Assembly (NCBI GenBank): GCA_020437545.1 | Contig: JAGQWH010000003.1 | Coordinates: 1-64,000, forward strand | Direction: 5' to 3' | Length of the DNA stretch: 64,000 nucleotides | Origin: Ignavibacteriota bacterium | GTDB taxonomy: Bacteria; Bacteroidota; Ignavibacteria; Tepidaquicellales; Tepidaquicellaceae | Shown: positions 406 to 34,836 of the stretch, in pieces | Numbering within the stretch: the first letter of the stretch is position 1 | Layout: each line of letters begins with the position of its first letter | Made by a program: the position numbers and the translations under genes | The notes under the pieces: model-generated | Seen by the model: only the letters and a program-made list of their open reading frames with translations | Databases searched by the model: none | Told to the model about the DNA's origin: nothing

Positions 406-2052
406 TTACTTCAAAAGGATCATTTTCCTGACTTCAGAAAAATTACCCGATCCGCCTGTTGCAGAAAGCCTGTAATAATATATTCCGCTTGATAACTGAT
501 AATTGAAAGCTGAAAATTGATATTTATATCTTCCCGGCGCTAATCTTTCATTTACAATAGTTGCAACTTCGTTTCCCAATGCATTATATATTTTCAAAGA
601 AACAAATCCCAATTCCGAAATTCCAAATTCCAAATTCGTAGTCGGGTTAAAGGGATTCGGATAATTTTGCGCGAGATCAGTTCTGACAGGAACCTGATTA
701 GAGATAGTGCTAATCCCGACAGTCTGAGAATATTTTATAGTAACATAATCATTTTCAGTACTATCCGAATAACTCTTTCCAGATACAATCACGTTATTAT
801 TCCGGTCAAGTCTGACTGCAACAGGTACATCGTCTCTGTTTGATGAACCATTAAATCTTACATTCCATAATTCATCTCCTGAGCTTGAATATTTTATTGT
901 CACAATGTCTTTCATAGTTCCTTCACCTTCGCTTGATCCTGTGACATAAATATTATTCAAACTGTCTTTGGTCATTGAATATGTAATATCATTTCCATTT
1001 GCCGGACCGTTGTATCTTCTTACCCATATCCGGCCGCCAACGGAATTATACTTTATTGTAACGAAGTCATTACCTGTTGATACTCCTGCGCTTCCGCCTG
1101 ATACATACACATTTGAAGAGTCATCAACCAATATTGAATTCCCGGCTTCCCAACCGAAATATCCATCATATCTCTTTATCCATAACGGTGCTCCTGCCGG
1201 GGAATATTTGATAGTAACTATATCATAATCACTTCCGACACCACGGCTTGCTCCGGTAACATAAGAATTACCAGTATTATCAACTGCGATTGCAACTCCC
1301 TGATCCCAGCCATCGAAGGTTCCGTTATAGTATTGTGACCATAATTCATCCCCGTTCGAATTATACTTTGTAGTTGAATAATCATAAAAATTATTAAAAC
1401 CGTTGGAGATATAACCTGTCACATAAATATTACCCGCATTATCCGTAACCAAAGCGCTTGGCATATCATCAATATTATCCGGACCGTTTTTATTCTGTAC
1501 CCATTGCTGTGTACCTAATGAGTTGTACTTAATGGTAGTAATGTCAAATGAGGTGCCTGTATTATATGTTGTTCCTGTAATGTACACTATACCAGATCCG
1601 TAAACTGCTATCGATGTTGCATAATCACCAAGGCTTATGTCCGTCCCTCCGAAAGTATTCAGCCACAACTGGACGCCGGAAGAGCTGTATTTTATTGTAT
1701 TAAATTCCATGCGGGAGTTTGACTGAGTACTGCCTCCCGTTACATAGACATTACCCGATCCGTCAAGAGCAATTGCTTCCGGAACATCATCATTGTTACC
1801 GGGACCATTGTACCTTTGTATCCATTGAGTTGCGCCGGAATTATTGTATTTAATAGTCAGATAATCCTGATAATTAATCCCATTACTTGTTCCCGTTACA
1901 TAAATGTTACCCGAAGCGTCAACAAGCATTCCGGACGGTTCATCAAAACTTTTCGAACCGTCATAATAAACAGCCCACTCCTGATTTACCTGTGCCTGAA
2001 GACAGATCAGATTTAAGTTTAACATAAAAACAATAACGATTAATTTTTTCAT
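406..2052 (-). CDS. Secreted SBBP-repeat beta-propeller protein with T9SS sorting domain
   Basis: 548 residues. Residues 1-20 form a signal peptide (MKKLIVIVFMLNLNLICLQA, then Q). The body repeats a roughly 50-residue module with cores like D.SGNIYVTG and IKYN..G...W..RYNGP, the SBBP beta-propeller pattern. The last ~85 residues are a type IX sorting domain (QNYPNPFNPTTNLEF...KMILLK), so the mature protein should be exported and probably anchored at the cell surface; its ligand is unknown. It starts 19 bp after the 735-residue gene upstream on the same strand, which suggests co-transcription. Two stretches of the sorting-domain coding region (489-523 and 603-637) are 7-bp tandem repeats. Confidence 0.85.
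   Translation of the reverse strand: MKKLIVIVFMLNLNLICLQAQVNQEWAVYYDGSKSFDEPSGMLVDASGNIYVTGTSNGINYQDYLTIKYNNSGATQWIQRYNGPGNNDDVPEAIALDGSGNVYVTGGSTQSNSRMEFNTIKYSSSGVQLWLNTFGGTDISLGDYATSIAVYGSGIVYITGTTYNTGTSFDITTIKYNSLGTQQWVQNKNGPDNIDDMPSALVTDNAGNIYVTGYISNGFNNFYDYSTTKYNSNGDELWSQYYNGTFDGWDQGVAIAVDNTGNSYVTGASRGVGSDYDIVTIKYSPAGAPLWIKRYDGYFGWEAGNSILVDDSSNVYVSGGSAGVSTGNDFVTIKYNSVGGRIWVRRYNGPANGNDITYSMTKDSLNNIYVTGSSEGEGTMKDIVTIKYSSSGDELWNVRFNGSSNRDDVPVAVRLDRNNNVIVSGKSYSDSTENDYVTIKYSQTVGISTISNQVPVRTDLAQNYPNPFNPTTNLEFGISELGFVSLKIYNALGNEVATIVNERLAPGRYKYQFSAFNYQLSSGIYYYRLSATGGSGNFSEVRKMILLK
489..523. repeat. Heptamer array inside sorting-domain coding sequence
   Basis: Plus-strand units ttgataa, ctgataa, ttgaaag, ctgaaaa, ttgatat: five copies of 7 bp. 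On the coding (minus) strand they encode the FSAFNYQL stretch just before LSSGIYYY, where sibling domains usually have a shorter linker. Confidence 0.7.
603..637. repeat. Heptamer array inside sorting-domain coding sequence
   Basis: Plus-strand units caaatcc, caattcc, gaaattc, caaattc, caaattc: five copies of 7 bp. On the coding strand this is a GAATTTG-type array encoding NLEFGISELGF between NPFNP and VSLKIY. The same array type occupies the same protein position in the gene ending at 26190. Confidence 0.8.
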
Positions 2053-2071: not shown

Positions 2072-4279
2072 TTATTTCAGAAGTACCATTTTTTTGGTTT
2101 CACTCATACCGTTTACAACGAGATTGTAAAAATAAATTCCGCTTGGAAGTCCCTTGGCTTTGAAGTCAACTTTGTAACTGCCGGCTGTTTGTTTTTCATT
2201 TACTAAAGTCAGCACTTCCTTTCCGAGAATATCAAATACTTTTAAAGAAACAAAATCACTGTAAGGCAGATCATAGCTTATAACAGTACTCGGATTAAAT
2301 GGATTTGGATAATTTTGATTCAATATAAATCCTGATGGTACCAAAGAAGAAAAGCTTTCCACACCTACCAAGCCGCCGTTAGTGGTCTTCATGATCATTC
2401 CCCCCTCTCCGACCATGTATCCGGTATTTTCATCCGTAAACTCAATACCATTAATTGCTCTGTCAGGATTTAAATATTCATTCCAGCTTTCTCCCTGATC
2501 AGTTGATTTCAGAATTTTATTTTTGAAACCTAATAAATATCCCGTGCTATTATTTGCAAAATATAATCTTAAGTTAGAATAATTAAAAATATTTGGATCT
2601 ACTGATTCCATATAAACCTGACGCCAGCTGATCCCTCCGTCAGTTGTCTTATTGAGATAATAAATTCTGCTTTGAAATGATTTCCAGTATTCCGAAAAAA
2701 TAAATCCGTTAAACTCATCTATAAAGTATAAATATCGGTAACCCAGATTAATAGTGTCTCCTATTAAATCACTTACAAAATTCCAGTTCACACCTGTATT
2801 AGTTGTTTTGTACAGACTTACAGTATCATAACCAACTGTAATGAATCCAATATCATGTGAAGGGAATTGGAAATTGTAAATATAATCAGGGTAAAAAGAA
2901 TAGGATGTCCAGTTCACTCCACCGTTAGTTGTTTTATTCAACTCCTGAGGGTAAAAGGTATTCATGATAAAGCCGGTGTTTGCATCGACGAATTGAAAAT
3001 TTATTGTCGAATCAGACGGAGTTACTAATTTATTCCAGGTAATTCCGCCGTTTTGAGATTTAAAAAAACTAAAGTCCCGGGCTTTTGCATACCCTGTATT
3101 ATCATTTGGAAAAGACACCTGGAAAATATTTATTGATGTATTTATTTTAAACCAGTTAGTTCCGCCGTTTATTGTTTTAAAAAATGAGCTGCCCGTGTAG
3201 TTCGGATAATTAAGAACGTATCCGGTATTCTGACTTGGGAAATCAACGGAATATAAATTTTCAAATGTACCCGAAGGTGATGTCAGTGTCCAGTTATTTC
3301 CAAAATCGGTTGATTTAAAAAGTGTTCCGTAAGTTCCGCATAAAAGACCTACACCCGAACTTAAAAAGTATACAGAGTTCAAAGCAAAGTATTGGCTGCT
3401 TATGGTATTGTCTAAAACCCAGTTCAACCCGCTGTTGGTTGTCTTCAAAAAAGTATTTTCATTTCCTGCCGCAAAGCCGGTAGAAGAATTAACAAAAATG
3501 ATATCATTGAAAGCCTTCGTGCCGGGGGTGTTATGAAAGAGCCAGGTATTCCCGCCGTTAGTTGTTCTCCTGAAATCTTTAACCCCGTTATTTACTGAAC
3601 CTACAAGGAATCCTGTATTTGCATTAATGAAACTAAAAGAATTAATATTACTTCCGAAATCAGCTACAGTCCAGTTGATACCGCCGTTTGTAGTTTTGAG
3701 TATTTTACCGTTACCTCCGATAAATCCTTTTTCTGAGTCAGTAAAATAAACGCAATTAAGTTTTATAGTAGTCCCGGAACTCTGTTCTATCCAATTGCTT
3801 CCGCCGTTAGTTGTTTTAAATATCCTTCCATTATATCCGGTAATATATCCGGTATTTGAATCATAAAAATAAACAGACTTGAGAGTGTCGTTTATTCCAA
3901 TGGATATTTTTTGCCAGAGTAATCCGGAATTAGTTGTCTTAATAATCATCCCGTCTGATCCAACTGCAAATATATTATTTGCATCAGAGATTGCAACAGA
4001 ATAAATATCATTAATAAAATTAGAGTTGTACAAATTCCAGCTTTCGCCGCCATCAGAGGTTCTCAATACAGCTCCGAAATTCCCAACAGCAATACCGGTT
4101 TGCGCATTGATAAACTTTACAGAATTCAATGTGCTTCCCTGCGGCAGCGGATTTTGCCAGAACCATCCGCTCTGAGAAAAGGAAACTGACTGAAAGCCGG
4201 AACACAGAAAGAATGTAATAAATAACCGGGTAAAGAATTTATATGATGAACAGGGAAAAGTTGTTTTCATGGGGTTCAT
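2072..4279 (-). CDS. Secreted YCF48/BNR-type beta-propeller protein with T9SS sorting domain
   Basis: 735 residues. A hydrophobic leader lies near residues 17-35 (FFLCSGFQSVSFSQ), preceded by a basic N terminus. The body carries many repeats of the form NTGF..G..G.I.KTTNGG..W, the pattern of YCF48-like and BNR/sialidase-type beta-propeller blades. The C terminus (QNYPNPFNPSTVISYDL...KKMVLLK) is a type IX sorting domain. Such proteins are exported through the outer membrane and usually stay surface-bound; no catalytic residues are evident. It is the first gene of a likely two-gene unit with the SBBP protein downstream. Confidence 0.85.
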   Translation of the reverse strand: MNPMKTTFPCSSYKFFTRLFITFFLCSGFQSVSFSQSGWFWQNPLPQGSTLNSVKFINAQTGIAVGNFGAVLRTSDGGESWNLYNSNFINDIYSVAISDANNIFAVGSDGMIIKTTNSGLLWQKISIGINDTLKSVYFYDSNTGYITGYNGRIFKTTNGGSNWIEQSSGTTIKLNCVYFTDSEKGFIGGNGKILKTTNGGINWTVADFGSNINSFSFINANTGFLVGSVNNGVKDFRRTTNGGNTWLFHNTPGTKAFNDIIFVNSSTGFAAGNENTFLKTTNSGLNWVLDNTISSQYFALNSVYFLSSGVGLLCGTYGTLFKSTDFGNNWTLTSPSGTFENLYSVDFPSQNTGYVLNYPNYTGSSFFKTINGGTNWFKINTSINIFQVSFPNDNTGYAKARDFSFFKSQNGGITWNKLVTPSDSTINFQFVDANTGFIMNTFYPQELNKTTNGGVNWTSYSFYPDYIYNFQFPSHDIGFITVGYDTVSLYKTTNTGVNWNFVSDLIGDTINLGYRYLYFIDEFNGFIFSEYWKSFQSRIYYLNKTTDGGISWRQVYMESVDPNIFNYSNLRLYFANNSTGYLLGFKNKILKSTDQGESWNEYLNPDRAINGIEFTDENTGYMVGEGGMIMKTTNGGLVGVESFSSLVPSGFILNQNYPNPFNPSTVISYDLPYSDFVSLKVFDILGKEVLTLVNEKQTAGSYKVDFKAKGLPSGIYFYNLVVNGMSETKKMVLLK

Positions 4280-4501: not shown

Positions 4502-5281
4502 TTGGATAAATCACCCAACCTCGAAAAGAAACTCGACATAGCTTCAGAAGCAAAAAAGATCCCGCCTTCACAGCAGGAAAGATATTTCCTTGAAGGTCCG
4601 CGCTCAAGATGGGAAGAGTTTAAGTTTACTGTATCGGTTATGCTCGAATTCATTAAAGGATTCCGCGCATTTCATTTTGTCGGACCATGTGTTACTGTAT
4701 TTGGCTCGGCGAGAACTCCGGATGCTCATGAACATTATGTCCAGGCGTATGAGATCGGAAAACGTCTGAGTAATATCGGATTTACTATCATGACGGGTGG
4801 CGGTCCGGGTATTATGGAAGCTGCCAATAAAGGCGCAAGAGATGCCGGGGGACCTTCTGTTGGATGCAACATAGAGCTCCCATTCGAACAGGATCACAAT
4901 CCTTATATGGACAAGTGGGTGACATTCAAATATTTCTTTGTTAGGAAAGTTCTGCTGATGAAATATTCCTATGCTTACGTTGTAATGCCCGGCGGCGCAG
5001 GAACAATGGACGAACTCTTTGAAACACTGACTCTCATTCAGACTAAGAAGATCTCTGATTTCCCGATAGTAATTGTCGGAGTTGAATACTGGAAAAATCT
5101 TACTGAACTTTTAGATGACTTCGTGGCGAAAAAAACCATCAGTCCTGAAGATTTGAATCTGTTTGTAGTTACGGATTCCGTTGATGAAGCAGTCGAGCAT
5201 ATTCAGAATAATACACTTGAAAAATATCACCTTGTAAAGAAAAAGTTCAGACCATTCGGGATGTTTGGTGAGAACAAATAG
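4502..5281 (+). CDS. LOG family (TIGR00730-type) nucleotide phosphoribohydrolase
   Basis: 259 residues. The two LOG-family signatures are present: GGGPGIMEA at about 99-107 and PGGAGTMDE at 163-171, the latter holding the catalytic glutamate. Members cleave nucleoside 5'-monophosphates to base plus ribose 5-phosphate (cytokinin activation in plants, nucleotide housekeeping in bacteria) and were long misannotated as lysine decarboxylases. The N-terminal ~60 residues form an extension typical of bacterial members. The start is TTG at 4502: the frame is closed by a TAA at 4481-4483 and no ATG lies between, so TTG is the only plausible start giving the full domain. No purine-rich ribosome-binding site is visible; the 9-bp array ends just upstream. 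Confidence 0.88.
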   Translation: MDKSPNLEKKLDIASEAKKIPPSQQERYFLEGPRSRWEEFKFTVSVMLEFIKGFRAFHFVGPCVTVFGSARTPDAHEHYVQAYEIGKRLSNIGFTIMTGGGPGIMEAANKGARDAGGPSVGCNIELPFEQDHNPYMDKWVTFKYFFVRKVLLMKYSYAYVVMPGGAGTMDELFETLTLIQTKKISDFPIVIVGVEYWKNLTELLDDFVAKKTISPEDLNLFVVTDSVDEAVEHIQNNTLEKYHLVKKKFRPFGMFGENK

Positions 5282-5378
5282 ACTGTATACTATTACTTAC
5301 ATCTTTATTATTACCGGATCATTTTTTAAGTATCCGGATTAAATCAAATCCTGATTTTAAAATTTTTTATAAATATCC

Positions 5379-6176
5379 ATGTCAACCAGATCCGGGAAAA
5401 ATACAATTTTAATAACGGGAGCTACTGACGGGATTGGTATTGAATTTTCCAGGCTTTATGCAGGATTGAAATATAACATTATTGCTACCGGCAGAAATGA
5501 AGGTAAATTATCCTCACTAAAAACGGAACTTGAGAATAAAAACAGAATAACTGTAAATACCTTTGCAGCCGATCTTTCAAAACCGGAAGAGATCTTTAAA
5601 CTGAAAGATTACATAGATTCTATGGAAACAAAAATTGATATTTTAATTAACAATGCAGGCTCCGGTGTACTTGGAGAGTTTGCTGAAACTGATTTACAAA
5701 AAGAACTCTCGATGATAAGTGTTAACATAACGGCATTGACGGTCATTACAAAAGCTGTTTTAAAAAAAATGCTGATCAACGGTGAAGGTAAGATATTAAA
5801 TATTGCATCAACTGCTGCGTTCAAGCCCGGACCGATGATGGCTGTTTATTATGCGACAAAGGCATATGTTCTTTCATTTTCTCAGGCTATAGCTTGTGAA
5901 AACAGGGGTTCCGGAATCAGCATAACAGTCTTATGTCCGGGACCTGTCAACACAAAATTATTGAAAGAATCTGCCGATATTGAACTGAGGCATGCTGAAT
6001 ATGATAAGATGGCTGATCCTAAAGATATAGCTTTAAGCGGTATGAAGGCTCTCGATAAAAACAATCTTGTTTACATTCCCGGAATCAGAAATAAATTCAA
6101 TGCTATGATAGTAAAGATCATTCCATCAAAATTATTATCAGACATTCTATATAAATCCAAAAAAAATCTTTTCTGA
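5379..6176 (+). CDS. Short-chain dehydrogenase/reductase (SDR)
   Basis: 265 residues. The NAD(P)-binding motif TGATDGIG is at 13-20, NNAGSG near 90, and the catalytic YxxxK is Y157-K161 with an upstream serine in IASTAA. This is the classical SDR fold, a soluble oxidoreductase; the substrate cannot be read from sequence. It opens a tightly packed operon of surface-glycan genes (its TGA is directly followed by the ATG of the WecG-type gene), so a role in making a sugar or lipid precursor is a reasonable inference. Confidence 0.85.
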   Translation: MSTRSGKNTILITGATDGIGIEFSRLYAGLKYNIIATGRNEGKLSSLKTELENKNRITVNTFAADLSKPEEIFKLKDYIDSMETKIDILINNAGSGVLGEFAETDLQKELSMISVNITALTVITKAVLKKMLINGEGKILNIASTAAFKPGPMMAVYYATKAYVLSFSQAIACENRGSGISITVLCPGPVNTKLLKESADIELRHAEYDKMADPKDIALSGMKALDKNNLVYIPGIRNKFNAMIVKIIPSKLLSDILYKSKKNLF

Positions 6177-6929
6177 ATGAGGATTCAAAAAATCCGGACC
6201 GGTAATATTGATCTGCATTATGCGGAATTTCAGATATTCACGGATTATATTTTTGATCGATTAACATATTCTCCCGGTAAGATCATAATTGTTTTTATTA
6301 ATCTCAGGAATTTTTATTTTATGAACAAGGATGAATCATTACTTAATGAAATTAAAAGTAATTCACTGGCTGTTTTTGAAGGTATTGGATTAAAATTTTG
6401 TATGGCAATTAAAGGCAAAGGATTTATAAAAGATCTTAATGGTACTGATCTTATTCCGCTTTTTCTTAATAAACCGGAAATAAAGAAATATGGTATTTTT
6501 TTATTAGGAGCAACTCAGGAATCAGTAGTAGGAGCAGTTGAACACATTAAAAACAATTATCCTGCCGTAAAAATATGCGGATTTCACAATGGTTACTTTG
6601 AAGATTCCGAAGAACAGGATATTATTGAAAAAATTAACGGAAGTCAGGCTGAAATATTACTGGTATGCATGGGATTTCCAAGACAGGAAAAATTTATCTT
6701 TAAATACCGGGATAAACTTAATGTTAAGCTGATATGGAATCTCGGTGGTCTTTTTGATTTTGTTTCCGGGATAAAGCCGAGAGCCCCGGGTTTTGTCAGA
6801 AGGATGAGAATGGAATGGTTGTACAGGTTCATAAAAGAACCTGTCCGGATGTTTCACAGGAATACTGTTGCAGCCACTTGGTCAATCAAAAATATAATTT
6901 TTTCTTCTGATATTTCATCAAAAAATTGA
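6177..6929 (+). CDS. WecG/TagA/CpsF family glycosyltransferase (GT26)
   Basis: 250 residues. The C-terminal half carries the family signature VCMGFPRQEKF near 163-173, then GGLFDFVSG and APGFVRRMRMEWLYRFIKEP, as in WecG, TagA and CpsF proteins. These enzymes transfer a sugar (ManNAc or ManNAcA in studied cases) from a UDP donor onto an undecaprenyl-diphosphate-linked acceptor on the cytoplasmic side of the membrane. The ATG directly follows the SDR stop codon, so the two are probably translationally coupled. The acceptor may be the lipid-linked sugar made by the sugar-phosphate transferase at the end of the same operon. Confidence 0.88.
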   Translation: MRIQKIRTGNIDLHYAEFQIFTDYIFDRLTYSPGKIIIVFINLRNFYFMNKDESLLNEIKSNSLAVFEGIGLKFCMAIKGKGFIKDLNGTDLIPLFLNKPEIKKYGIFLLGATQESVVGAVEHIKNNYPAVKICGFHNGYFEDSEEQDIIEKINGSQAEILLVCMGFPRQEKFIFKYRDKLNVKLIWNLGGLFDFVSGIKPRAPGFVRRMRMEWLYRFIKEPVRMFHRNTVAATWSIKNIIFSSDISSKN

Positions 6930-6935
6930 TTTGTC

Positions 6936-7808
6936 ATGGTACCTTTATTAATTACGATGGATCTTGAAGTTGCAGGAGATCATGATCCGGAAGGACAAAA
7001 AAACATACTCAAAAATATTGGTTCGGATTTTAAAGAACTAAAATTACCGATGACTGTTTTTTTAACATGTGATTCGGTGGATTATTTCGGAGAACGTCTC
7101 AGAACAATTGATACACCCGGAAATGAAATCGGTATTCACGGGGTTAATCATTCTGCCCGTGAAAATTATGCCAGGTTAGATGAAGATACCATCAGAAGAA
7201 ACCTCGAACTTTCACTTAATAAAATCTCCCATTTCTTTAAAAGGAAAGCTGAATCGTTCCGTGGACCATTTATGTCAACATCGGGAATCACTCAGAAAGT
7301 CTTAACGGAGTATGGGATCAGATCAGATTTTTCAGTTTGTTCTCAAAGAATAGATTTTATGAATTCAATAGGCGGGGATATCAGATGGTTGATTTCACCC
7401 AGACAGCCTTATCATCCTTCAGATTCATCACCATACAGAAAGGGCAAAAATCCTTTATGGGTGGTACCTCTGAGCTGTATATGCGCTCCGTTTATTTCTT
7501 CAATGCTTTATATATTCGGTCTTGAATTCATGAAATTGTTTTTCAGAATTCTTTTAAAAGAATCAATAAGCACTAATAAGCCCATTGTTTATTTATTTCA
7601 TTCATACGAATTTTCAAAAGATATTAATTCAGTATACTCAGGTTCAAATAAACATAGAAAATCTTTTCTTCACAATTTATATATTTCAGATATAAAGAAA
7701 AGGTATGAGTTGAATTTGAGTCTGATCGGGTACATGTTATCTTTTAAAGAGATACAGCCCATGAACAGTTATCAATTGATTAATCATCTTGAAAGGAATC
7801 CAAATTGA
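6936..7808 (+). CDS. Polysaccharide deacetylase family protein (NodB homology)
   Basis: 290 residues. An early aspartate-bearing motif (TMDLEVAGDHD, residues 8-18), then FLTCDS, GNEIGIHGVNH near 62-72 (metal-binding histidines), and SFRGPFM match the NodB-type carbohydrate esterase 4 layout. Such enzymes remove N- or O-acetyl groups from polysaccharides or lipid-linked sugars. There is no signal peptide, so it may act in the cytoplasm on a lipid-linked intermediate. A hydrophobic stretch near 185-200 could touch the membrane. It starts 6 bp after the WecG-type gene, and its stop overlaps the TTG of the radical SAM gene. Confidence 0.85.
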   Translation: MVPLLITMDLEVAGDHDPEGQKNILKNIGSDFKELKLPMTVFLTCDSVDYFGERLRTIDTPGNEIGIHGVNHSARENYARLDEDTIRRNLELSLNKISHFFKRKAESFRGPFMSTSGITQKVLTEYGIRSDFSVCSQRIDFMNSIGGDIRWLISPRQPYHPSDSSPYRKGKNPLWVVPLSCICAPFISSMLYIFGLEFMKLFFRILLKESISTNKPIVYLFHSYEFSKDINSVYSGSNKHRKSFLHNLYISDIKKRYELNLSLIGYMLSFKEIQPMNSYQLINHLERNPN

Positions 7809-8896
7809 AAGATGCATTTTATAAATTTCTGAACAATTCTATTTCCCGTCATTTTCTGACACCGAGATATCTTATTCTCTTTGTATCAAATCAATGCTGG
7901 ATGAAATGCGGGCATTGCTGGTTCAGCGAAGAATGGAAAAAAGATAATCTTAAAGACGATTCTCTTTCATTTGATGAATTGGAAAGACTTTCTGATTCTG
8001 TTAACAAACTTCTTTTTCTCAGCATTACAGGGGGTGAAGCATTCGGAAGAGATGATATTCCGGAAGTTGTAAATCTGTTTACAAGGGATGGAAAAACTCA
8101 AAGATATCAGATCCCGACCTCAGGTTATTTAACCTCAAAAATAATTTCAAATACAGAAAAGATACTTTCACAAAATCCGGGAATCCCGTTTCGTGTTGAT
8201 GTATCACTGGATGGAAATATGGAGATACATGATAAGATCAGAAATCTTAAAGGGTGTTTTTCTAATGCTTTAGAGACAATAAAGGAACTGAATAAAATTA
8301 AAAAAAAGATCCCTTATTTTGATGTAGGAGTTATCACAACCATATCAAATCAAAATCAGGAAATTGTTGAAGAAATATCTGATATTGTAAATTCTGTCCA
8401 TCCTGACGGAGAATGGATGGTCAATCTTGTACGTGGGAATACAAGGGATCCTGAATCGGGCAAAGTAAAACTTGAAAATTACAACAAGGCTCAGGATATT
8501 ATTAATAAAAGAATTAAGGACGGAACCTTTAAAGGTCACAGCGGACATTTATCAGCAAAATGGTTAACTGCTAAAAACTCTGTAAGAAGAAAAGTAATAA
8601 ACGATATAGTGCTTGATAAGAAAGAAGGCGGAGCCTGCTCTGCCGGATCAATAGCAGGTGTAATTTATGCAGACGGTTCTGTTTATCCTTGCGAAATGCT
8701 TGATATATCTTTCGGAAATCTCAGGGATTTTGATTTTAATTTAAGCGAGCTCTGGAATACCAGAGAAGCAGTTGAATTGCGTAACCGGATTCAGGACACA
8801 CGGTGTATTTGTACACAGGAATGTTTTTTATCAACGAGTCTGCTGATACAACCACAGCTTTGGCCTCAACTTATATACGAAAGACTAAGACACTGA
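7805..8896 (+). CDS. Radical SAM/SPASM domain protein in a glycan operon
   Basis: 363 residues. C31, C35 and C38 form the CxxxCxxC iron-sulfur motif (CWMKCGHC) and GGEAFGRDD follows near 78, the SAM-binding GGE motif. The C-terminal third has a SPASM-like set of cysteines (GGACSAGS, VYPCEML, CICTQECF), which bind auxiliary iron-sulfur clusters in enzymes that modify peptides or, less often, carbohydrates. The TTG start overlaps the preceding TGA (7805-7808), and its own TGA overlaps the ATG of the sugar-phosphate transferase (8896). No precursor peptide is evident nearby, so a sugar or lipid-linked substrate is plausible but unproven. Confidence 0.85.
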   Translation: MKDAFYKFLNNSISRHFLTPRYLILFVSNQCWMKCGHCWFSEEWKKDNLKDDSLSFDELERLSDSVNKLLFLSITGGEAFGRDDIPEVVNLFTRDGKTQRYQIPTSGYLTSKIISNTEKILSQNPGIPFRVDVSLDGNMEIHDKIRNLKGCFSNALETIKELNKIKKKIPYFDVGVITTISNQNQEIVEEISDIVNSVHPDGEWMVNLVRGNTRDPESGKVKLENYNKAQDIINKRIKDGTFKGHSGHLSAKWLTAKNSVRRKVINDIVLDKKEGGACSAGSIAGVIYADGSVYPCEMLDISFGNLRDFDFNLSELWNTREAVELRNRIQDTRCICTQECFLSTSLLIQPQLWPQLIYERLRH

Positions 8897-9519
8897 TGAA
8901 TAATTCATTATTATATAAATTTGTAAAAAGAGCTTTTGATATTATCTTTTCCTTAATTGGCATAATTATATTTTTATTGCCATTTACTGCTATCTTCACT
9001 TGTATTCGTTTATTTTCGAAAGAATCATTTTTACATAAAGCTATGAGAATTGGCAGAAAGGAAACTCCTTTTCTTATGTTCAAAATAAGAACAATGAGAA
9101 GCAATACACCTTTAGTATCAATAGAATCAATGGATTCACCTGAAAATTTTTATTTGCGGCTGGGAAAGTTTCTCAGGAAATCGGGTATTGACGAGATTCC
9201 TCAGCTGTATAATATTTTAAAAGGTGATATGAGTTTTGTAGGTCCGAGACCAACTCTTTTTGATCCGGTAGAACTAATTAAACTCAGAAAAGAAGAGAAT
9301 ATCTATTCTTTAAGACCCGGACTTACAGGCTATGCACAGATCAACGGCAGATCAAACATATCGAATCAGTTAAAAGTCAGATTGGATAAACATTATCTTG
9401 ATAATGTATCTTTTTCGATGGATATGAAAATTCTTTTTAAAACATTTCCGTCAATATTTCTTGAATTTAAACCTGTTAAAGATCATGATAAAATATTATC
9501 CGCTAAAGAGACTTTATAG
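8896..9519 (+). CDS. Undecaprenyl-phosphate sugar-1-phosphate transferase (short form)
   Basis: 207 residues from the ATG at 8896, which overlaps the stop of the radical SAM gene (TGATG); an in-frame start at 8803 would add 31 residues inside the upstream gene and is unlikely. One membrane helix (IIFSLIGIIIFLLPFTAIFT) is followed by the catalytic domain of the bacterial sugar transferase family: KIRTM, GIDEIPQLYNILKGDMSFVG, PRP and RPGLTGYAQINGR. This domain moves a sugar 1-phosphate from a nucleotide sugar to undecaprenyl phosphate, the first committed step in exopolysaccharide, O-antigen or protein-glycan assembly. It is the last gene of the operon that starts at 5379. Confidence 0.9.
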   Translation: MNNSLLYKFVKRAFDIIFSLIGIIIFLLPFTAIFTCIRLFSKESFLHKAMRIGRKETPFLMFKIRTMRSNTPLVSIESMDSPENFYLRLGKFLRKSGIDEIPQLYNILKGDMSFVGPRPTLFDPVELIKLRKEENIYSLRPGLTGYAQINGRSNISNQLKVRLDKHYLDNVSFSMDMKILFKTFPSIFLEFKPVKDHDKILSAKETL

Positions 9520-9535
9520 ATCAGGTCTGAACATA

Positions 9536-10378
9536 TTATATATAATTTCTCTTTATATATCTTAAGAAAAACTGAAATCTGGATTTAATTACTTCTGGCA
9601 TAAAAGAATATAAGTACTGAATAAAATGAATGAACATACCAATAAGAAATCCGGGATAATCTTTACGGAATTCTTTTATTATTTTCATTTCCGTTATTGC
9701 AACTTCGGCCTGATCCTGAAGGGATAAATTTTGTTCACCCTGAAGATAAAAAGTAAAATATTCCTGAAAATTATAAAGTTTTCCGATTTTGCCCAACCTT
9801 AAAAAGAAATCCCAGTCTTCAGCAACCCTGTAATTACTATAACATCCGGCGGACATGGCGGCATCTTTTCTGAAAATTACGGTTGTATGCTCCATGGGGC
9901 AAGCCATAAGAGCTTTATTCCTTATTTTTTCATCTGTCTCATTTTTAAAAAACCGGTACAGCTCAGTTCCTTCAGAATCAATCATAATAACTCCGCCTCC
10001 CGTCAGGACATATTCATTATTCCTTTCCATAAAGCTGATCTGCATTTCCAGTTTTTGACTGTTGCACCAGACATCATCATCATCTAATCTTGCAATATAT
10101 TTTCCTGCCGAACTACGAATTCCAAAATTCAGAAAATCCGAAATTCCGTTCATTCCGGTTTTTGGTTTAAAAAAATATTTAAATCTGTTATCGTGTTTTG
10201 TATATTCAGCAATCAGATCCTTTGTCTCAGAAGATAAACTGCTATCCACTACAATTATTTCCCAATTATTAAAACTTTGTTTTAAAACACCTGCAATAGA
10301 TTTTTTAAGAAGTTCGGATCTGTTAAAGGTTGGGATCACTATGCTGACAATCGGGGAAACGGATTCAACTTTGTTCAT
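9536..10378 (-). CDS. Family 2 glycosyltransferase
   Basis: 280 residues. It begins with the GT-A nucleotide-binding motif SIVIPTFNRSELLKKSI, has IARLDDDD near 95 (the DXD-type metal/UDP site) and AEDWDFFLRLGKIG further on, all typical of inverting GT2 enzymes. No membrane helix is evident, although a hydrophobic C-terminal segment near 245-265 could contact the membrane. The gene faces the glycan operon tail to tail (16 bp apart), so it may add a sugar to the same glycan while being expressed from its own promoter. Confidence 0.87.
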   Translation of the reverse strand: MNKVESVSPIVSIVIPTFNRSELLKKSIAGVLKQSFNNWEIIVVDSSLSSETKDLIAEYTKHDNRFKYFFKPKTGMNGISDFLNFGIRSSAGKYIARLDDDDVWCNSQKLEMQISFMERNNEYVLTGGGVIMIDSEGTELYRFFKNETDEKIRNKALMACPMEHTTVIFRKDAAMSAGCYSNYRVAEDWDFFLRLGKIGKLYNFQEYFTFYLQGEQNLSLQDQAEVAITEMKIIKEFRKDYPGFLIGMFIHFIQYLYSFMPEVIKSRFQFFLRYIKRNYI

Positions 10379-10526
10379 AATTATAAAAGTGAAAGAAATG
10401 GTTTCTAATTTACAAATAAATGGGAATATTTTAAACTTATTTGTTAAAATAAAATTCAGAAAATTTAATAACTTTTTAGTAAAGCTTTTTAAATCTATTT
10501 TAAGAGCAGTTTTTTGAAATAGTAAA

Positions 10527-10607
10527 TAATTGGGGTGCTTGCTTTTAAATAGCGGCTGAGATCAAACCCACAGAACCTGCTACGGATAATGCCGGCGAAG
10601 GAAATTA
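10527..10607 (+). promoter_or_regulatory. TPP riboswitch (THI element)
   Basis: The conserved aptamer segments appear in order: GGGGTG (10532-10537), GCTGAGA (10555-10561), ACCC (10566-10569), GAACCTG (10573-10579) and GGATAATGCCGGCGAAGG (10584-10601). TAATT (10527-10531) can pair with AATTA (10603-10607) as P1. It is followed by a strong hairpin with a T-run (10618-10678) and then the TonB receptor ATG at 10698, so transcription termination on thiamine pyrophosphate binding is the likely mechanism. Confidence 0.93.
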
Positions 10608-10617
10608 AAAACTTTTT

Positions 10618-10678
10618 AACGCTTAATTCTTTTCTGCTGTAATAGCAAAGGTTCGGAAAAGATTTAAGCGTTTTTTTA
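10618..10678 (+). terminator. Intrinsic terminator, riboswitch expression platform
   Basis: The left arm 10618-10634 (AACGCTTAATTCTTTTC) pairs with 10656-10672 (GAAAAGATTTAAGCGTT) over 17 bp with one mismatch. A small inner hairpin (TGCT/AGCA) sits in the loop. The right arm runs into TTTTTTT and ATT, giving the U-run of a Rho-independent terminator just before the receptor gene. Confidence 0.88.
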
Positions 10679-10697: not shown

Positions 10698-13097
10698 ATG
10701 AAACATACTCTGAATTTTAGATTTTTGATTTTTGATTTTGGATTTTTACTTATTTATATAATGTCCTTTTCAGTCAATGCCTTTGCTCAAGCTGAGGTAA
10801 CTGAGGACAGTCTTATATACAAAACCGAAACAATTGACGTCGATGCGCTTAAAGGCATCGAAAGATCTACACCGGTTACATTTGAGAATATTGATAAGAA
10901 AGAGATCGATGAAAAATACTGGATGCAGGATCTGCCTATGTTTCTTAACGGAAATACAAGCATAAATGCATACTCTGAATCCGGAGCTTCAGTCGGATAC
11001 TCTTATCTGTCTATCAGAGGATTTGATCAGAGACGAATTTCCATTCTCATTAATGGCATTCCGCAGAACGATCCCGAGGACCATCAGGTTTATTGGGTAG
11101 ATATATCAGATATAACAGCATCTGCTGAAGAGATTCAGATTCAGCGCGGTATAGGAACTGCACTTTACGGTTCGTCATCGATAGGCGGCGTTGTGAATGT
11201 CCGGACTGTCGATATGTTCAAAAATAAATTTATGAATCTTTCGGCAGGACTGGGTTCATACAATTCTCAGAGATATTCTCTTGAATATTCTTCCGGAGTC
11301 GTGCAGGATGGTCTGGGATTTTACGGAAAGCTTACCAATATAAATTCCGATGGCTACAGGGATCAGTCATGGTCCAAGAACTGGTCTTACTTTCTCAGCG
11401 CAGGAAAACTGATAAATAAAAATTCCATTCTTAAGCTGAACTTTTACGGCAGCCCCGTTCAGAATCATCTGGCATATCTCGGTGTGGATTATGCATATCT
11501 CAACGGCGAAGTGACAGGCGATATTTATAATGACAGGAAATATAACTATTTGACCTATCCGGATGAAACAGACAATTACTTTCAGCCGCACTATGAACTT
11601 GTTTACAATATTGAACCTTCGGAGAATCTGTACATTTCAAATACACTTAGCTACATAAGAGGTGACGGATATTTCAATACTTCATTTCCTGTTTCTTACG
11701 GATATGATTTTGATTACTTCAGACTGAATCCGTTCTATGTTTCGGATACCACTACTTTCAATTCATCTTATTATAAAAGAAATGATGACGGTACATTTTA
11801 TTTTGAGAAAGGCAAAGGTTATGAGATCGTCAGAAGCGATATGGTAACAAAGCTGACGGTTGATAATAACACATACGGCTGGTTTCCGAAAGTTCAGATA
11901 AAACACAATGAGCAAAAAGGTACACTCGTTCTCGGCGGTGAAGTAAGATATCACGAATCAGAACATTACGGAAACATCATCTTTGCCGAAGCTCTGCCTC
12001 AGGGCACTCCTCCTGATTATCAGTATTACTATTTCAACGGAGGGAAAAATACATACTCGATCTATGCAAATGAATTGTACAGCGTGAACAAAAAATTAAA
12101 TGCGATGGTCGGTCTTCAGTATGTTTATCATAAGTATAAAATATACAATGATGAATACAGACCTTACAACTTTGATGTAGATTACAACTTCTTTACCCCG
12201 AGATTCGGATTGAATTATAATTTCAATGATAAGTTCAGTGCTTATGGAAATTTTTCCATAGCAACACTGGAGCCGCGGCTTAAGGATATTTACAACGGAG
12301 AGGATCCTTATGCAGCGCCGAATTTCAGGATTGTAAATGCAGCAGAAGGTATTTATGAAGACCCGCTTGTTCAGCCGGAGACAATGTATGATTACGAACT
12401 CGGTTTCGGATACAAAACGGATAAATTCAAAGCTTCGCTCAATCTGTATCTGATGGATTTTGATAATGAGATAGTAAATAACGGTCAGCTTGATAATGTC
12501 GGTCAGCCGATATCAGGTAATGCTGGTAAATCAATTCACGAAGGCATAGAAGCCGGGATTGTTCTGAATCCGTTTGAGCAGAAAGTTTTAAGAGATTTTT
12601 CTTTATCTGGAAATCTGAATCTTTCCAGTAATTATTTTACCGACTTTACTGAGATCATTGGTGTTGATTCATCAGGAAACATTATTTACGGAAATGATTA
12701 TTCCGATAATCAGATCCTGCTAACTCCGAATTTCATCGGGAATCTGCAATTGAATTATTCAAACAACATTGGTGTGAATGCATATATTTCACTTCAGTCC
12801 ATCGGCAAACAATATCTCGACAATTCAGAGAATGAAAGAAAGAATCCCGATGCAAAGAACGATCCCGGATATGTTGATAAAGTGATCGAACCATATACAG
12901 TTTTCAATGCAGGCTTATCTTTTAATTTAGCATCAATGGTAAAGCAGAGTTTGTTCAAAGGACTCGAACTGAATTTCAAATTCAATAATATCTTTGATGT
13001 GCTGTATGAAACTACGGGAAATATAAGCTATGGAGTGCCATACTGGATCCCGGCTGCCACGAGTAATTTTTATGGGGAGTTGAAGATAGGATTCTGA
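10698..13097 (+). CDS. TonB-dependent outer-membrane receptor, probably for thiamine
   Basis: 799 residues. The N terminus is a signal peptide ending near SVNAFAQ (about residue 31). There is no carboxypeptidase-like leader domain. The plug follows at about 55-170, with MQDLPMFLNGNTSINAYSE, SIRGFDQRR, ILINGIPQND and the plug end GTALYGSSSIGGVVNVRT. The remainder is a beta-barrel of alternating aromatic strands ending in FYGELKIGF, with a terminal phenylalanine as in outer-membrane barrels. The TPP riboswitch directly upstream is the key evidence for the substrate: in Bacteroidota, THI-element-controlled TonB receptors have been proposed as thiamine importers. No inner-membrane partner such as PnuT lies beside it. 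Part of the signal peptide is encoded by a heptamer array (10711-10745). Confidence 0.88.
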   Translation: MKHTLNFRFLIFDFGFLLIYIMSFSVNAFAQAEVTEDSLIYKTETIDVDALKGIERSTPVTFENIDKKEIDEKYWMQDLPMFLNGNTSINAYSESGASVGYSYLSIRGFDQRRISILINGIPQNDPEDHQVYWVDISDITASAEEIQIQRGIGTALYGSSSIGGVVNVRTVDMFKNKFMNLSAGLGSYNSQRYSLEYSSGVVQDGLGFYGKLTNINSDGYRDQSWSKNWSYFLSAGKLINKNSILKLNFYGSPVQNHLAYLGVDYAYLNGEVTGDIYNDRKYNYLTYPDETDNYFQPHYELVYNIEPSENLYISNTLSYIRGDGYFNTSFPVSYGYDFDYFRLNPFYVSDTTTFNSSYYKRNDDGTFYFEKGKGYEIVRSDMVTKLTVDNNTYGWFPKVQIKHNEQKGTLVLGGEVRYHESEHYGNIIFAEALPQGTPPDYQYYYFNGGKNTYSIYANELYSVNKKLNAMVGLQYVYHKYKIYNDEYRPYNFDVDYNFFTPRFGLNYNFNDKFSAYGNFSIATLEPRLKDIYNGEDPYAAPNFRIVNAAEGIYEDPLVQPETMYDYELGFGYKTDKFKASLNLYLMDFDNEIVNNGQLDNVGQPISGNAGKSIHEGIEAGIVLNPFEQKVLRDFSLSGNLNLSSNYFTDFTEIIGVDSSGNIIYGNDYSDNQILLTPNFIGNLQLNYSNNIGVNAYISLQSIGKQYLDNSENERKNPDAKNDPGYVDKVIEPYTVFNAGLSFNLASMVKQSLFKGLELNFKFNNIFDVLYETTGNISYGVPYWIPAATSNFYGELKIGF
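10711..10745. repeat. Heptamer array encoding part of a signal peptide
   Basis: Units tgaattt, tagattt, ttgattt, ttgattt, tggattt: five copies of 7 bp beginning in codon 5 of the TonB receptor. It encodes the hydrophobic core NFRFLIFDFGF of the signal peptide. The only later in-frame ATG (10761) would leave a leader without basic residues, so the array is probably genuinely translated. Confidence 0.75.
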
Positions 13098-23631: not shown

Positions 23632-26190
23632 ATGAAAAAGTATTTTTTGATTTTTCCGGCAGTTTTATTTTTAACATTCGTTTATTTATCATCGGCGAAT
23701 AAGTCTATGATATCAGACTCAGAAAATGTTATTGAAAATAATGCTGAATCGGGACCCGGCTTTGTTCCGGCTGAAGAATGGTTTGCTAAACAAAGAGCTT
23801 TCCCGTTTGATGAAATTCCTCAGGATGAATATCTGAAGTCAGTAAAGTATGTAAAACAAAATATGACTTATGTTGAGTCTGATGATCCGTCTTCATGGAG
23901 CTATGCAGGTCCTGTCAATATTGAAGGGAGAATAACTACTGTGGCAATTCATCCGACCGATCCTCAAACAGTCTATGCAGGAACGGCTAACGGAGGGCTG
24001 TGGAAGTCAAATGATTTTTGTCAGAACTGGTCAAGTGTCTTTGATGATCAGAATACTTCATCCGTCGGAGCAGTAGCTATTGATCCCGTCAATCCGGAAA
24101 TTATATATTGCGGGACAGGTGAACCGAACTCATTAAGAAGCTATTATCCCGGAACGGGTATTTATAAATCCACTAACGGCGGAGCGAACTGGATCTTTTC
24201 CGGTCTCGACAGTTCTTATACTATCGGTAATATTTCTATCAATCCATTAAACTCTCAGGAAATATATGTCGCAGCCGGGGGTTGGACAAGACGTAAAAAT
24301 CCTCAGAGAGGAATTTATAAATCGACAAACGGAGGAATGTCATGGGAAAGGAATTTTTATCTGTCGGATTCTGTCGGCGCTGTTGATGTAAAGGTCGATC
24401 CGCAAAATCCCAATAAAGTTTTTGCAGCTATGTGGGAACGACAGCGCAGAGAAGATTACATAAAATACGGCGGCAGATTTTCGGGAATGTATGTCTCGAC
24501 AAATTCAGGTGATAGCTGGTCACAGGTAAGCGGTGGTTTTCCGGTTAATGATGCAACAATGGGAAGGATCTCTTTTGATATTTCAATATCGGATCCGCAG
24601 ATAATTTATGCACTTACAGCTTATACTTCAGGTGCATCGAGAGGTTTATATAAATCAACTAATGGCGGTCAGAACTGGATTAACATTAATTCATCAGCGG
24701 CACAGTCTTCTTCTTATGCATGGTTCAACAGGATCTGCAGCATTGACCCCATCAATCCGAACAGACTTTTTTGCGGAGGTCTGCAAATGGAATTTTCTGA
24801 TAACGGAGGATCAACATTCGGCATATCAGGAACATCCCATGTCGATCAGCATGCTGCAGCATTTTCAGGATCCGATCCAAACTATATAGTCCTGGGAAAT
24901 GACGGTGGTATTGATTATTCAACCAACGGAGGAGCGTCATGGAATGAAAGCCGGTCACTGCCGATCACACAGTTCTATGCAGGTGAAATTTATTTCAACA
25001 ATCCTGAAAGAATTCTCGGCGGTACGCAGGACAACGGAACGATCAGAACTACTGCAGTCTCCGGTGTATGGGATGAAATATACGGAGGTGACGGATTTTA
25101 CTGCTTAGTGGATTATACTAACGGTCAGAATGTTTATGCCGCATATCAGTTCGGCGGACTTGGCCGATCCACTAACGGCGGTAATAGTTTTCTCGGAGCT
25201 ACAAACGGTCTGGATCTTACATACACAAACTGGATGACTCCTTATGTAATGGACAAAAACAATCCGCAGACACTTTACTGCGGAACTTATAAAATTCATA
25301 AAACAACTGACGGAATGCAGTCCTGGAATGTCATAAGTCCTGATCTTACAAACGGGCATGTGCAGGGTCTCGGTTCGATCACAACCGTTGACGTTGCAAA
25401 GTCAGATCCCGGGGTGATCTACTGCGGGACTGATGATGCCAATATCTGGGTAACTACAAATGGCGGTGGCGGATGGACAAAAATTAACAACGGACTTCCG
25501 CGAAGATGGGTTACACGGGTAGCTGTTCATCCTGATTCTGCAAATGTCTGTTATGTCACGCTTTCAGGATATAAAGTAGATTCGACAGGTTCTCATATAT
25601 TCCGGACAACTGATTTTGGTAATGTATGGACTTCCATAAGAGGTAACCTTCCTGATGCGCCGATAAATGATGTTATCATTGATCCGGCTAATACTAATTC
25701 GCTTATAATTGGTACAGACATTAATGTGATGACCACAAATAATCTCGGAGCTGACTGGTATATTCTCAGCAGCGGCATTCCATCAAATGTCCCCTGTCAG
25801 GATCTGACCTTTCACGCTCCGAGCAGAACACTTATTGTCTGGACTCACGGCAGAGGCGCTTATAAAACGATAGTCCCATTATCCGGAATTCAAAACATAA
25901 ATTCAGGTGTTGCAGAATCATTTGAATTAATGCAGAATTATCCGAATCCGTTCAATCCGGAAACGAATTTGGAATTTGGGATTTCGGAATTAGGATATGT
26001 TTCATTGAAAATTTATGATGTGCTTGGGAATGAAATTGAAACTCTGGTGAATGAAAATAAACCTGCAGGAAGATATTCGGTTCAATGGAATGGCTCAGAT
26101 TTTGCAAGCGGAGTTTATTTTTATAAATTATCCGTCACAGGAGGAGCAGGTGAATTTTCTGAGGTGAAGAAAATGATGTTACTGAAATAA
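23632..26190 (+). CDS. Large secreted VPS10/BNR-type beta-propeller protein with T9SS sorting domain
   Basis: 852 residues. The signal peptide is MKKYFLIFPAVLFLTFVYLSSA. From residue ~80 come repeats typical of sortilin/VPS10 and BNR propellers: IHPTDPQTVYAGTANGGLWKS, IDPVNPEIIYCGTGE, GIYKSTNGG..W. The last ~85 residues (QNYPNPFNPETNLEF to KKMMLLK) are a type IX sorting domain, very like that of the gene at 406-2052. An exported, probably surface-anchored protein; glycan or protein binding is possible but no catalytic site is visible. A heptamer array (25965-25999) lies inside the sorting-domain coding region. Confidence 0.87.
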   Translation: MKKYFLIFPAVLFLTFVYLSSANKSMISDSENVIENNAESGPGFVPAEEWFAKQRAFPFDEIPQDEYLKSVKYVKQNMTYVESDDPSSWSYAGPVNIEGRITTVAIHPTDPQTVYAGTANGGLWKSNDFCQNWSSVFDDQNTSSVGAVAIDPVNPEIIYCGTGEPNSLRSYYPGTGIYKSTNGGANWIFSGLDSSYTIGNISINPLNSQEIYVAAGGWTRRKNPQRGIYKSTNGGMSWERNFYLSDSVGAVDVKVDPQNPNKVFAAMWERQRREDYIKYGGRFSGMYVSTNSGDSWSQVSGGFPVNDATMGRISFDISISDPQIIYALTAYTSGASRGLYKSTNGGQNWININSSAAQSSSYAWFNRICSIDPINPNRLFCGGLQMEFSDNGGSTFGISGTSHVDQHAAAFSGSDPNYIVLGNDGGIDYSTNGGASWNESRSLPITQFYAGEIYFNNPERILGGTQDNGTIRTTAVSGVWDEIYGGDGFYCLVDYTNGQNVYAAYQFGGLGRSTNGGNSFLGATNGLDLTYTNWMTPYVMDKNNPQTLYCGTYKIHKTTDGMQSWNVISPDLTNGHVQGLGSITTVDVAKSDPGVIYCGTDDANIWVTTNGGGGWTKINNGLPRRWVTRVAVHPDSANVCYVTLSGYKVDSTGSHIFRTTDFGNVWTSIRGNLPDAPINDVIIDPANTNSLIIGTDINVMTTNNLGADWYILSSGIPSNVPCQDLTFHAPSRTLIVWTHGRGAYKTIVPLSGIQNINSGVAESFELMQNYPNPFNPETNLEFGISELGYVSLKIYDVLGNEIETLVNENKPAGRYSVQWNGSDFASGVYFYKLSVTGGAGEFSEVKKMMLLK
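25965..25999. repeat. Heptamer array inside sorting-domain coding sequence
   Basis: Units gaatttg, gaatttg, ggatttc, ggaatta, ggatatg: five copies of 7 bp encoding NLEFGISELGY between NPFNP and VSLKIY. It matches the array at 603-637 in unit and protein position. Confidence 0.78.
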
Positions 26191-34347: not shown

Positions 34348-34836
34348 ATGCAAATGAATCATTTTTTCCATTCAAAACTATATTTAAATAACGGGACCGG
34401 AGTTGTAAGATTTTTACTGATACTTGCTTTGATCTCATTCCCTCTCATATCTTCCGATTGCAATAATTTACTGAATAACGAAGAACCGGCACCGGAAAAA
34501 TTTGTCGGTAACTGGACTCTTGTAGAACAGACAGGTGCTCTTCAGGACATTTGTCCTCAGGAGAAAGTCGTATTCAGGGCAGATGGAGTTGCGGAGCTTA
34601 CCTGTCCGGAAGGTCAGCCGATACTCAGAGTTTATTCGGTATCCGGCACTGAACTTTTTTATGACCAGACCTCTCTTCAGTATGAATATGAATTTGATAA
34701 CAATGATCAGAAACTCAATCTTTACGGAGTAAATGTATCAAGAAATTTATTCTATGAAAAAATTGCAACCGATAACATTGGCAATGATAAAAGATCAGTT
34801 ACAAAGCAGAATAATTCCTCGGAGGCAGTAAAATGA
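34348..34836 (+). CDS. Small exported lipocalin-like protein, coupled to a metalloprotease gene
   Basis: 162 residues. Residues 21-37 are hydrophobic (RFLLILALISFPLISSD) before Cys38; the aspartate directly before the cysteine is unusual for a lipobox, so lipid attachment is uncertain. KFVGNWTLVEQTG and FRADGVAELTCPEGQP resemble lipocalin-like or META-type small beta folds. Its TGA overlaps the protease ATG (34833-34836), so the two are made together; such partners can be inhibitors or folding helpers, but that is inference. Confidence 0.6.
   Translation: MQMNHFFHSKLYLNNGTGVVRFLLILALISFPLISSDCNNLLNNEEPAPEKFVGNWTLVEQTGALQDICPQEKVVFRADGVAELTCPEGQPILRVYSVSGTELFYDQTSLQYEYEFDNNDQKLNLYGVNVSRNLFYEKIATDNIGNDKRSVTKQNNSSEAVK

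Follow-up and report, generated by a model that had tools for sequence, protein, structure and literature searches.

To our knowledge, the radical S-adenosylmethionine (SAM) enzymes that act on sugars belong to antibiotic and nucleoside pathways. BtrN, SuiB and PqqE are described as using their Twitch or auxiliary-cluster region in two-electron oxidations (PMC9012708, accessible portion). For surface glycans, the Caulobacter holdfast offers a phosphoglycosyl transferase (PGT), HfsE, a WecG/TagA-type transferase, HfsJ, and a deacetylase, HfsH, the last of which is taken to work on a substrate that is lipid-linked or polymerised (excerpts of PMC6372794 and PMC3900383). Here we describe a locus in which a radical SAM enzyme is encoded together with enzymes of these three kinds. 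It lies in a stretch of 64,000 nucleotides from an Ignavibacteriota bacterium (contig JAGQWH010000003.1, positions 1 to 64,000; hereafter the window), where five plus-strand genes stand in one row and code for a short-chain dehydrogenase/reductase (SDR), a WecG-type glycosyltransferase, a NodB-type deacetylase, a radical SAM enzyme and a small PGT. We read them as part of a mobile or easily lost cassette that would assemble a lipid-linked surface glycan and alter it chemically in the cytoplasm, a reading to which we assign a probability of about 0.5. That the target is a glycan rather than a peptide or a lipid we consider likely.

The five genes are tightly packed. From SDR to PGT the intergenic distances are 0, 6, -4 and -1 bp, in agreement with the original prediction, which had described genes joined by gaps of 0-6 bp or by overlaps. 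The radical SAM gene, with TTG as its start codon, overlaps the stop codon of the deacetylase gene, while the ATG of the PGT gene at 8896 has one base in common with the TGA of the radical SAM gene; a start at GTG 8803 was dismissed as an over-extension from the mechanical listing of open reading frames (ORFs). All five proteins exceed the curated Pfam cut-offs, with 44.6 bits against 29.5 for Radical_SAM, 171.1 against 27.4 for WecG (PF03808), 37.7 against 23.1 for the deacetylase and 172.4 against 27 for Bac_transf. The catalytic motifs of four are intact: TGATDGIG and YYATK in the SDR, TMDLE, HGVNH, FRGP and FHSYE in the deacetylase, CxxxCxxC in the radical SAM enzyme and DEIPQL (residue 99) in the PGT. 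The G+C content of the operon is 33.9%, against 36.2% in the window.

A comparison within the genus reveals the limits of the cassette. In the congener G347, whose genome has 96% completeness, the LOG-family gene (92% identity) adjoins the unit of thiamin riboswitch and TonB receptor (90%), and at that junction nothing of window positions 5257-10522 is found, only 122 bp without similarity in its place. The missing stretch holds exactly the five genes and the convergent gene of a GT2 glycosyltransferase. A second congener, G462, keeps GT2, PGT, radical SAM and deacetylase genes in equal order as far as its contig end. The six genes have thus been gained or lost together. The right edge of the insert is marked by a thiamin pyrophosphate (TPP) riboswitch, whose place upstream of a TonB-dependent receptor gene suggests that the receptor serves thiamin uptake. 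In the related locus L017, a tRNA-Asp gene (10315-10389) directly follows the PGT gene and may be a site of insertion there.

The radical SAM gene is present as a single copy in its genome. Homologues were detected in 2 of 296 genomes sampled from the whole phylum (E<=1e-20), in 4 of 44 genomes of the order (E<=1e-50) and in 8 of 391 class genomes (E<=1e-25). Of these eight, five are close (E<1e-100) and the others distant. Searches of class and phylum scored only the best candidates per genome (e.g. 5 of 12), and some absences may be misses. Further homologues came from the phylum of a Calditrichia genome (1 of 40 genomes, E<=1e-60) and from that of a Hyd24-12 genome (3 of 42, E<=1e-50). A single search through 84,980 species genomes, made with one query sequence and reaching close relatives only, gave five loci with 30-92% identity.

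Eight loci make up the close family, namely the window, L014, L015, L016, L017, L011, L027 and L033, of which L014 and L016 stop at contig ends; pairwise identity of their radical SAM proteins is 38-92%. WecG lies upstream of the radical SAM gene in all seven readable loci, and the deacetylase gene stands between the two in six of the eight (L014 without a readable WecG). The block WecG-deacetylase-radical SAM is carried by the window, L015, L016, L017 and L011, and by L014 up to its contig end within the deacetylase gene, which means three Ignavibacteria families and one Calditrichia genome. This recurrence in other genera and in Calditrichia is more than chance. The PGT gene is found in five of the eight loci (divergent in L033) and the SDR gene in three of the six with a readable upstream flank (present in the window, L015 and L011, missing in L017, L027 and L033). 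WecG, deacetylase and radical SAM are the core, and SDR and PGT are exchangeable. The original prediction had treated all five genes as a unit and had named their scattering in relatives as the sign against it; this came out half true, since SDR and PGT vary. Overlapping genes, a shared cassette and a recurring block do sustain its proposal of one pathway.

In L011 the core block is preceded by genes for Poly_export, Wzz, Wzy_C and a WzxE-like flippase, and this series ties it to polysaccharide export of the Wzx/Wzy type. Between the window and L011 the radical SAM enzyme is best conserved (57% identity), followed by the deacetylase (45%), SDR (38%) and WecG (37%). Two more proteins are conserved beside the block in L011 (10339-13558) and L015 (11117-14281), with 41.7% and 35.6% identity. 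The first has only a weak NCBIfam match to SGNH/GDSL and none in Pfam, the second weak GDSL and TPR matches; possibly they serve O-acyl modification of a glycan.

Deacetylase and radical SAM enzyme are coupled within the class. The deacetylase subtype (E<=1e-25) was found in 5 of 391 genomes, the same five that have the close radical SAM gene, and adjoins that gene in all of them (P ~1e-11 if genomes are independent, a guide only, as the five come from three genera). The WecG profile gave 22 matches in 21 of these 391 genomes. Four exceed 380 bits and all belong to radical SAM loci, the fifth such locus being cut off by a contig end; L045/L070 comes next at 264 bits, and the remainder reach at most 209 bits. 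Gene content and catalytic motifs, presence or absence as a unit, the conserved blocks and this coupling are direct observations of the present analysis. In L070 (9780-11993), from another class genome, a WecG-PGT-SDR module stands with no radical SAM or deacetylase gene in the readable part. Judged from this one comparison, WecG-PGT-SDR looks like a base module to which deacetylase and radical SAM enzyme were added as a pair. Together with the counts for SDR and PGT, L070 indicates that the radical enzyme goes with WecG and deacetylase and not with all five genes.

Table 1. Features of the window, with positions counted from its first nucleotide
Feature	Position	Strand	Support or remark
SDR (classical), Y157-x3-K161	5379..6176	+	Pfam adh_short 2.1e-44
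WecG/TagA/CpsF-family (GT26) glycosyltransferase	6177..6929	+	Pfam Glyco_tran_WecG (PF03808) 2.3e-50
NodB/CE4-type deacetylase without signal peptide	6936..7808	+	Pfam Polysacc_deac_1 2.3e-09
Radical SAM enzyme with C-terminal Twitch-like domain	7805..8896	+	Pfam Radical_SAM 2.3e-11, SPASM 2.2e-07
Small monotopic PGT	8896..9519	+	Pfam Bac_transf 8.7e-51; Asp-Glu dyad in DEIPQL
GT2 glycosyltransferase, convergent, inside same insert	9536..10378	-	Copy in L014 at equivalent place, 84.6% identity
Stretch without counterpart at equivalent site of congener G347	5257..10522	.	~5.3 kb
TPP riboswitch	10521..10620	+	RF00059, 62.3 bits
TonB-dependent receptor	10698..13097		Downstream of TPP riboswitch
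ORFs with Por_Secre_tail sorting tail	23632..26190; 34833..36494; 44111..45031; 46564..47985; 60056..61735		
Further Por_Secre_tail	2072..4279		
Por_Secre_tail below cut-off	406..2052		

Nine cysteines are present in the radical SAM protein, three of them in the CxxxCxxC motif (C31, C35, C38) and five in the C-terminal domain (C278, C296, C334, C336, C340). In an alignment of 14 sequences, which leaves out L020, whose contig stops short of the final cysteines, and L019, almost a duplicate of L018, all of these are invariant except C340, which is nearly so and is Thr in L012. The motif, the Pfam score and the barrel of the model place the protein in the radical SAM superfamily. According to the accessible text of PMC6231123, a SPASM motif has seven cysteines, Cx9-15Gx4C-gap-Cx2Cx5Cx3C-gap-C, and Twitch enzymes such as SkfB have CxC in the domain. 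The SPASM label first given to our enzyme is right in so far as Pfam SPASM (PF13186) scores 31.5 bits against a cut-off of 21.5 and the first portion of the motif fits, C-x12-G-x4-C (C278, G291, C296), the remainder being CxCx3C. With five C-terminal cysteines instead of seven, a full SPASM domain with two auxiliary clusters was ruled out. A Twitch domain, which binds one auxiliary cluster, has a cysteine on either side of a beta-hairpin and a pair beyond the next helix. The spacing C-x17-C-x37-C-x-C (C278, C296, C334, C336; CxxC in L018) fits this pattern, and model strands 284-287 and 292-294 lie between C278 and C296. By its cysteines, then, the domain appears Twitch-like and not a full SPASM; C340 could be a spare cluster ligand or a hydrogen donor.

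The AlphaFold2 model of this enzyme (predicted local distance difference test, pLDDT, 90.8) has radical SAM enzymes among the fold neighbours listed: SkfB (Z 22.5), BlsE (22.1), SuiB (21.6), anSME (21.0), ChlB (20.0), PqqE (19.5), DesII (19.1), MoaA (18.4), BtrN (16.3) and tetraether lipid synthase (15.9). The top few matches are tied and mix peptide with sugar substrates; sugar-acting enzymes in this list include BlsE, DesII and BtrN. Among the 25 NCBIfam matches listed, none is over its cut-off, the best being NirJ2 with 73.7 of 500 bits. An anti-phage role was rejected, because the only PADLOC match of the six proteins, viperin-like and belonging to the radical SAM enzyme (25.5 bits), was taken as superfamily likeness.

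Maturases of ribosomally synthesised and post-translationally modified peptides (RiPPs) are among the closest curated profiles and folds, and mycofactocin joins a radical SAM enzyme with a GT2. One could therefore suppose a peptide maturase whose neighbouring sugar genes decorate the peptide or stand there by coincidence. We hold this to be very improbable. When the intergenic small ORFs of eight loci were compared, none resembled one from another locus at E<0.01, so that no conserved precursor was found, and the interior of the operon has no space for such a gene. Matches to SkfB, SuiB and CteB start past their residues 83-97, which implies absence of the N-terminal recognition domain, and in the model only ~20 residues precede the radical SAM barrel. 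The neighbours are a PGT and WecG, joined in L011 by proteins of Wza, Wzz, Wzy and Wzx types. Identity as a RiPP maturase was rejected on the lack of a precursor gene near the enzyme and on the missing recognition domain, though a precursor encoded far off in the genome is conceivable. The original prediction had likewise noticed no precursor peptide, and the short peptides paired with relatives that it had named as a sign against it were not seen.

For a glycan target we infer substrates, step order and reaction type as follows. The PGT would load a sugar phosphate on a polyprenyl carrier, the WecG-type transferase would add a second, probably N-acetylated sugar, the signal-less NodB enzyme would take off the acetyl group, and the radical SAM/Twitch enzyme would take a hydrogen off a carbon atom in the freed aminosugar or in its neighbour, all four acting in that order on one lipid-linked unit at the cytoplasmic side. 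Most likely the radical step would turn an alcohol group into a ketone, in the way that BtrN treats an amino-cyclitol. Reduction or epimerisation of a keto sugar may fall to the SDR, GT2 would extend the unit, and export would be left to Wzx/Wzy-type machinery encoded elsewhere. The PGT, with its Bac_transf domain and Asp-Glu dyad, is of the monotopic kind; the genome has five Bac_transf genes in all. In the deacetylase D9, H68, H72, R109 and H222 are invariant in six of six sequences, in keeping with the catalytic Asp, the His-x3-His and the distal His of the NodB/CE4 family. Its catalytic motif begins at residue 7, which leaves no room for a signal peptide, and its place of action should thus be the cytoplasm. 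The deacetylase model has a lower confidence (pLDDT 74.2) but matches CE4 folds including ArnD, an enzyme that acts on a lipid-linked aminosugar. The best NCBIfam match of the SDR is mycolate_SDR, with 170 bits far under the cut-off of 380. The substrates of BtrN and AprD4 are amino-alcohols, which would explain why the deacetylase should act ahead of the radical enzyme.

Given a glycan target, two-electron oxidation is our tentative choice, at somewhat less than even odds. The auxiliary cluster favours it, since such a cluster is seen in SuiB, and held in BtrN and PqqE, to take the electron of the substrate radical. Dehydration (AprD4-like), deamination (DesII-like) or epimerisation of the lipid-linked aminosugar is less likely and ranks below oxidation; here the deacetylase would unmask an amino-alcohol and the SDR, where present, would reduce a keto product as AprD3 does. 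For these unlikely reactions speak the action of AprD4 and its NADPH reductase AprD3 on paromamine (PMC5461906, in the part available), the SDR of the window, L015 and L011, the place of DesII among the fold neighbours and the near constancy of C340. However, L017, L027 and L033 have no SDR and L070 has one without the radical enzyme, which weakens the SDR as an obligate partner of the AprD4/AprD3 kind. DesII, moreover, is not known to have a Twitch domain.

Several findings weigh against the cassette as a pathway of lipid-linked glycan editing. Structure prediction, proposed earlier as a check, yielded a confident model, but SkfB, SuiB and anSME match it at the level of BlsE and DesII, and the fold does not choose between peptide and sugar. 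L027 and L033, in the Hyd24-12-type genomes G616 and G668, carry WecG and radical SAM genes without the deacetylase subtype, which was not found anywhere in these two genomes (best E 3.5e-8 and 1.9e-6); deacetylation is thus not a strict precondition. The window ORFs that were scanned include neither a Wzx nor a Wzy gene close to the cluster. The inconstant SDR and its occurrence in L070 weaken the pairing of oxidation with reduction.

The acceptor of WecG is a further point on this side. TagA structures are the only PDB matches to the WecG family profile (best 1.3e-46), and the enzyme keeps Asn39 and the Gln-Glu of TagA, while the position of Thr37 is not Thr. The base, Asp65 in TagA, is Asp in five of seven sequences and Glu in the window and L016. 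TagA Arg83, modelled beside the acceptor diphosphate (PMC6493773, partial text, the source also for the role of the base), is replaced by Asp in all seven (Asp86 in the window). With Arg83 lost and Glu in place of the base, the acceptor in the window may differ from undecaprenyl-diphosphate-linked N-acetylglucosamine. L045/L070 shows the same change to Asp, and the class homologues L049 and L054 have Asn. As L045/L070 carries Asp without a radical enzyme, the change marks a WecG lineage, and we rejected it as an indicator of the radical route.

A lost residue near the acceptor diphosphate would also suit a radical enzyme that merely shares the operon and works ahead of transfer or alongside it, with a nucleotide sugar or the polyprenyl or lipid aglycone as substrate, and two of its fold neighbours, tetraether lipid synthase and BlsE (cytosylglucuronate decarboxylase), agree with such substrates. 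Yet a glycosyltransferase is nearly always present and no consistent nucleotide-sugar enzyme lies nearby, genes of the GDP-mannose dehydratase type occurring only in the L015 stretch among the loci scanned with Pfam. We regard action outside the lipid-linked unit as quite improbable.

Eight more loci with 29-33% identity form a distant family (L012, L013, L018, L019, L020, L028, L029 and L034); they are not all independent, since L018 and L019 hardly differ. Six of the eight have a GT2 gene immediately upstream of the radical SAM gene, those of L019 and L020 being assigned by likeness to the GT2 of L018 or by reading and not by Pfam scan. L012 has a PMT_2-type membrane protein at this place and L013 has neither. 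In L013 (7809-10833) a B12-binding radical SAM gene comes after the Twitch-type gene, which has no glycosyltransferase directly upstream. A glycosyltransferase upstream in nearly all relatives and the Wzx/Wzy-type cluster of L011 accord with the original suggestion of radical chemistry on a sugar or lipid-linked intermediate. As one joint claim, possible but still short of an even chance, we propose that Twitch-type radical SAM enzymes, each paired with a WecG-type or GT2 transferase, form an overlooked family that would perform C-H radical chemistry on lipid-linked surface glycans of bacteria and perhaps archaea, the deacetylase-dependent branch editing the aminosugar while on its lipid carrier.

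If this is true, the transferase-deacetylase-radical SAM block extends sugar-acting radical SAM chemistry to surface glycans and explains keto-, deoxy- or epimerised sugars that arise after transfer, not as nucleotide sugars. It would also give a short gene list for reconstitution tests.

How does it compare with the known systems? In the open-licence literature we found no paper on the combination of WecG, deacetylase and PGT with a radical SAM gene. In the Brachyspira hyodysenteriae plasmid, radical SAM genes of the rfb region lie beside glycosyltransferase and rhamnose genes (PMC4267127, accessible part); they may be of another subfamily, and the plasmid tblastn search with our radical SAM protein (E<=1e-15) gave a single record, from Parabacteroides with 24.8% identity. 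Holdfast synthesis in Caulobacter has three enzyme kinds in common with the cassette, a likeness by enzyme kind, whereas the word "radical" is absent from the available text of PMC6372794. With TagA/WecG (GT26) the cassette shares family membership by Pfam score, the conserved Gln-Glu and an Asp/Glu base, and differs at the positions of Arg83 and Thr37. AprD4/AprD3, which effect C3' deoxygenation in apramycin synthesis, resemble it by description as a radical SAM enzyme and reductase on an aminosugar (PMC5461906, same part), but their substrate belongs to a diffusible antibiotic and the SDR is not a constant partner here. BtrN combines radical SAM with one Twitch domain and oxidises an amino-alcohol by two electrons (PMC9012708, same portion); it is a weak match (E 0.0055) to the C-terminal portion of the profile built from our family, and differs by acting on a soluble cyclitol of an antibiotic pathway (butirosin) and by its identity of 15%. 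Among these systems, we class the locus as a glycan cassette of the Wzx/Wzy type whose radical enzyme is uncharacterised.

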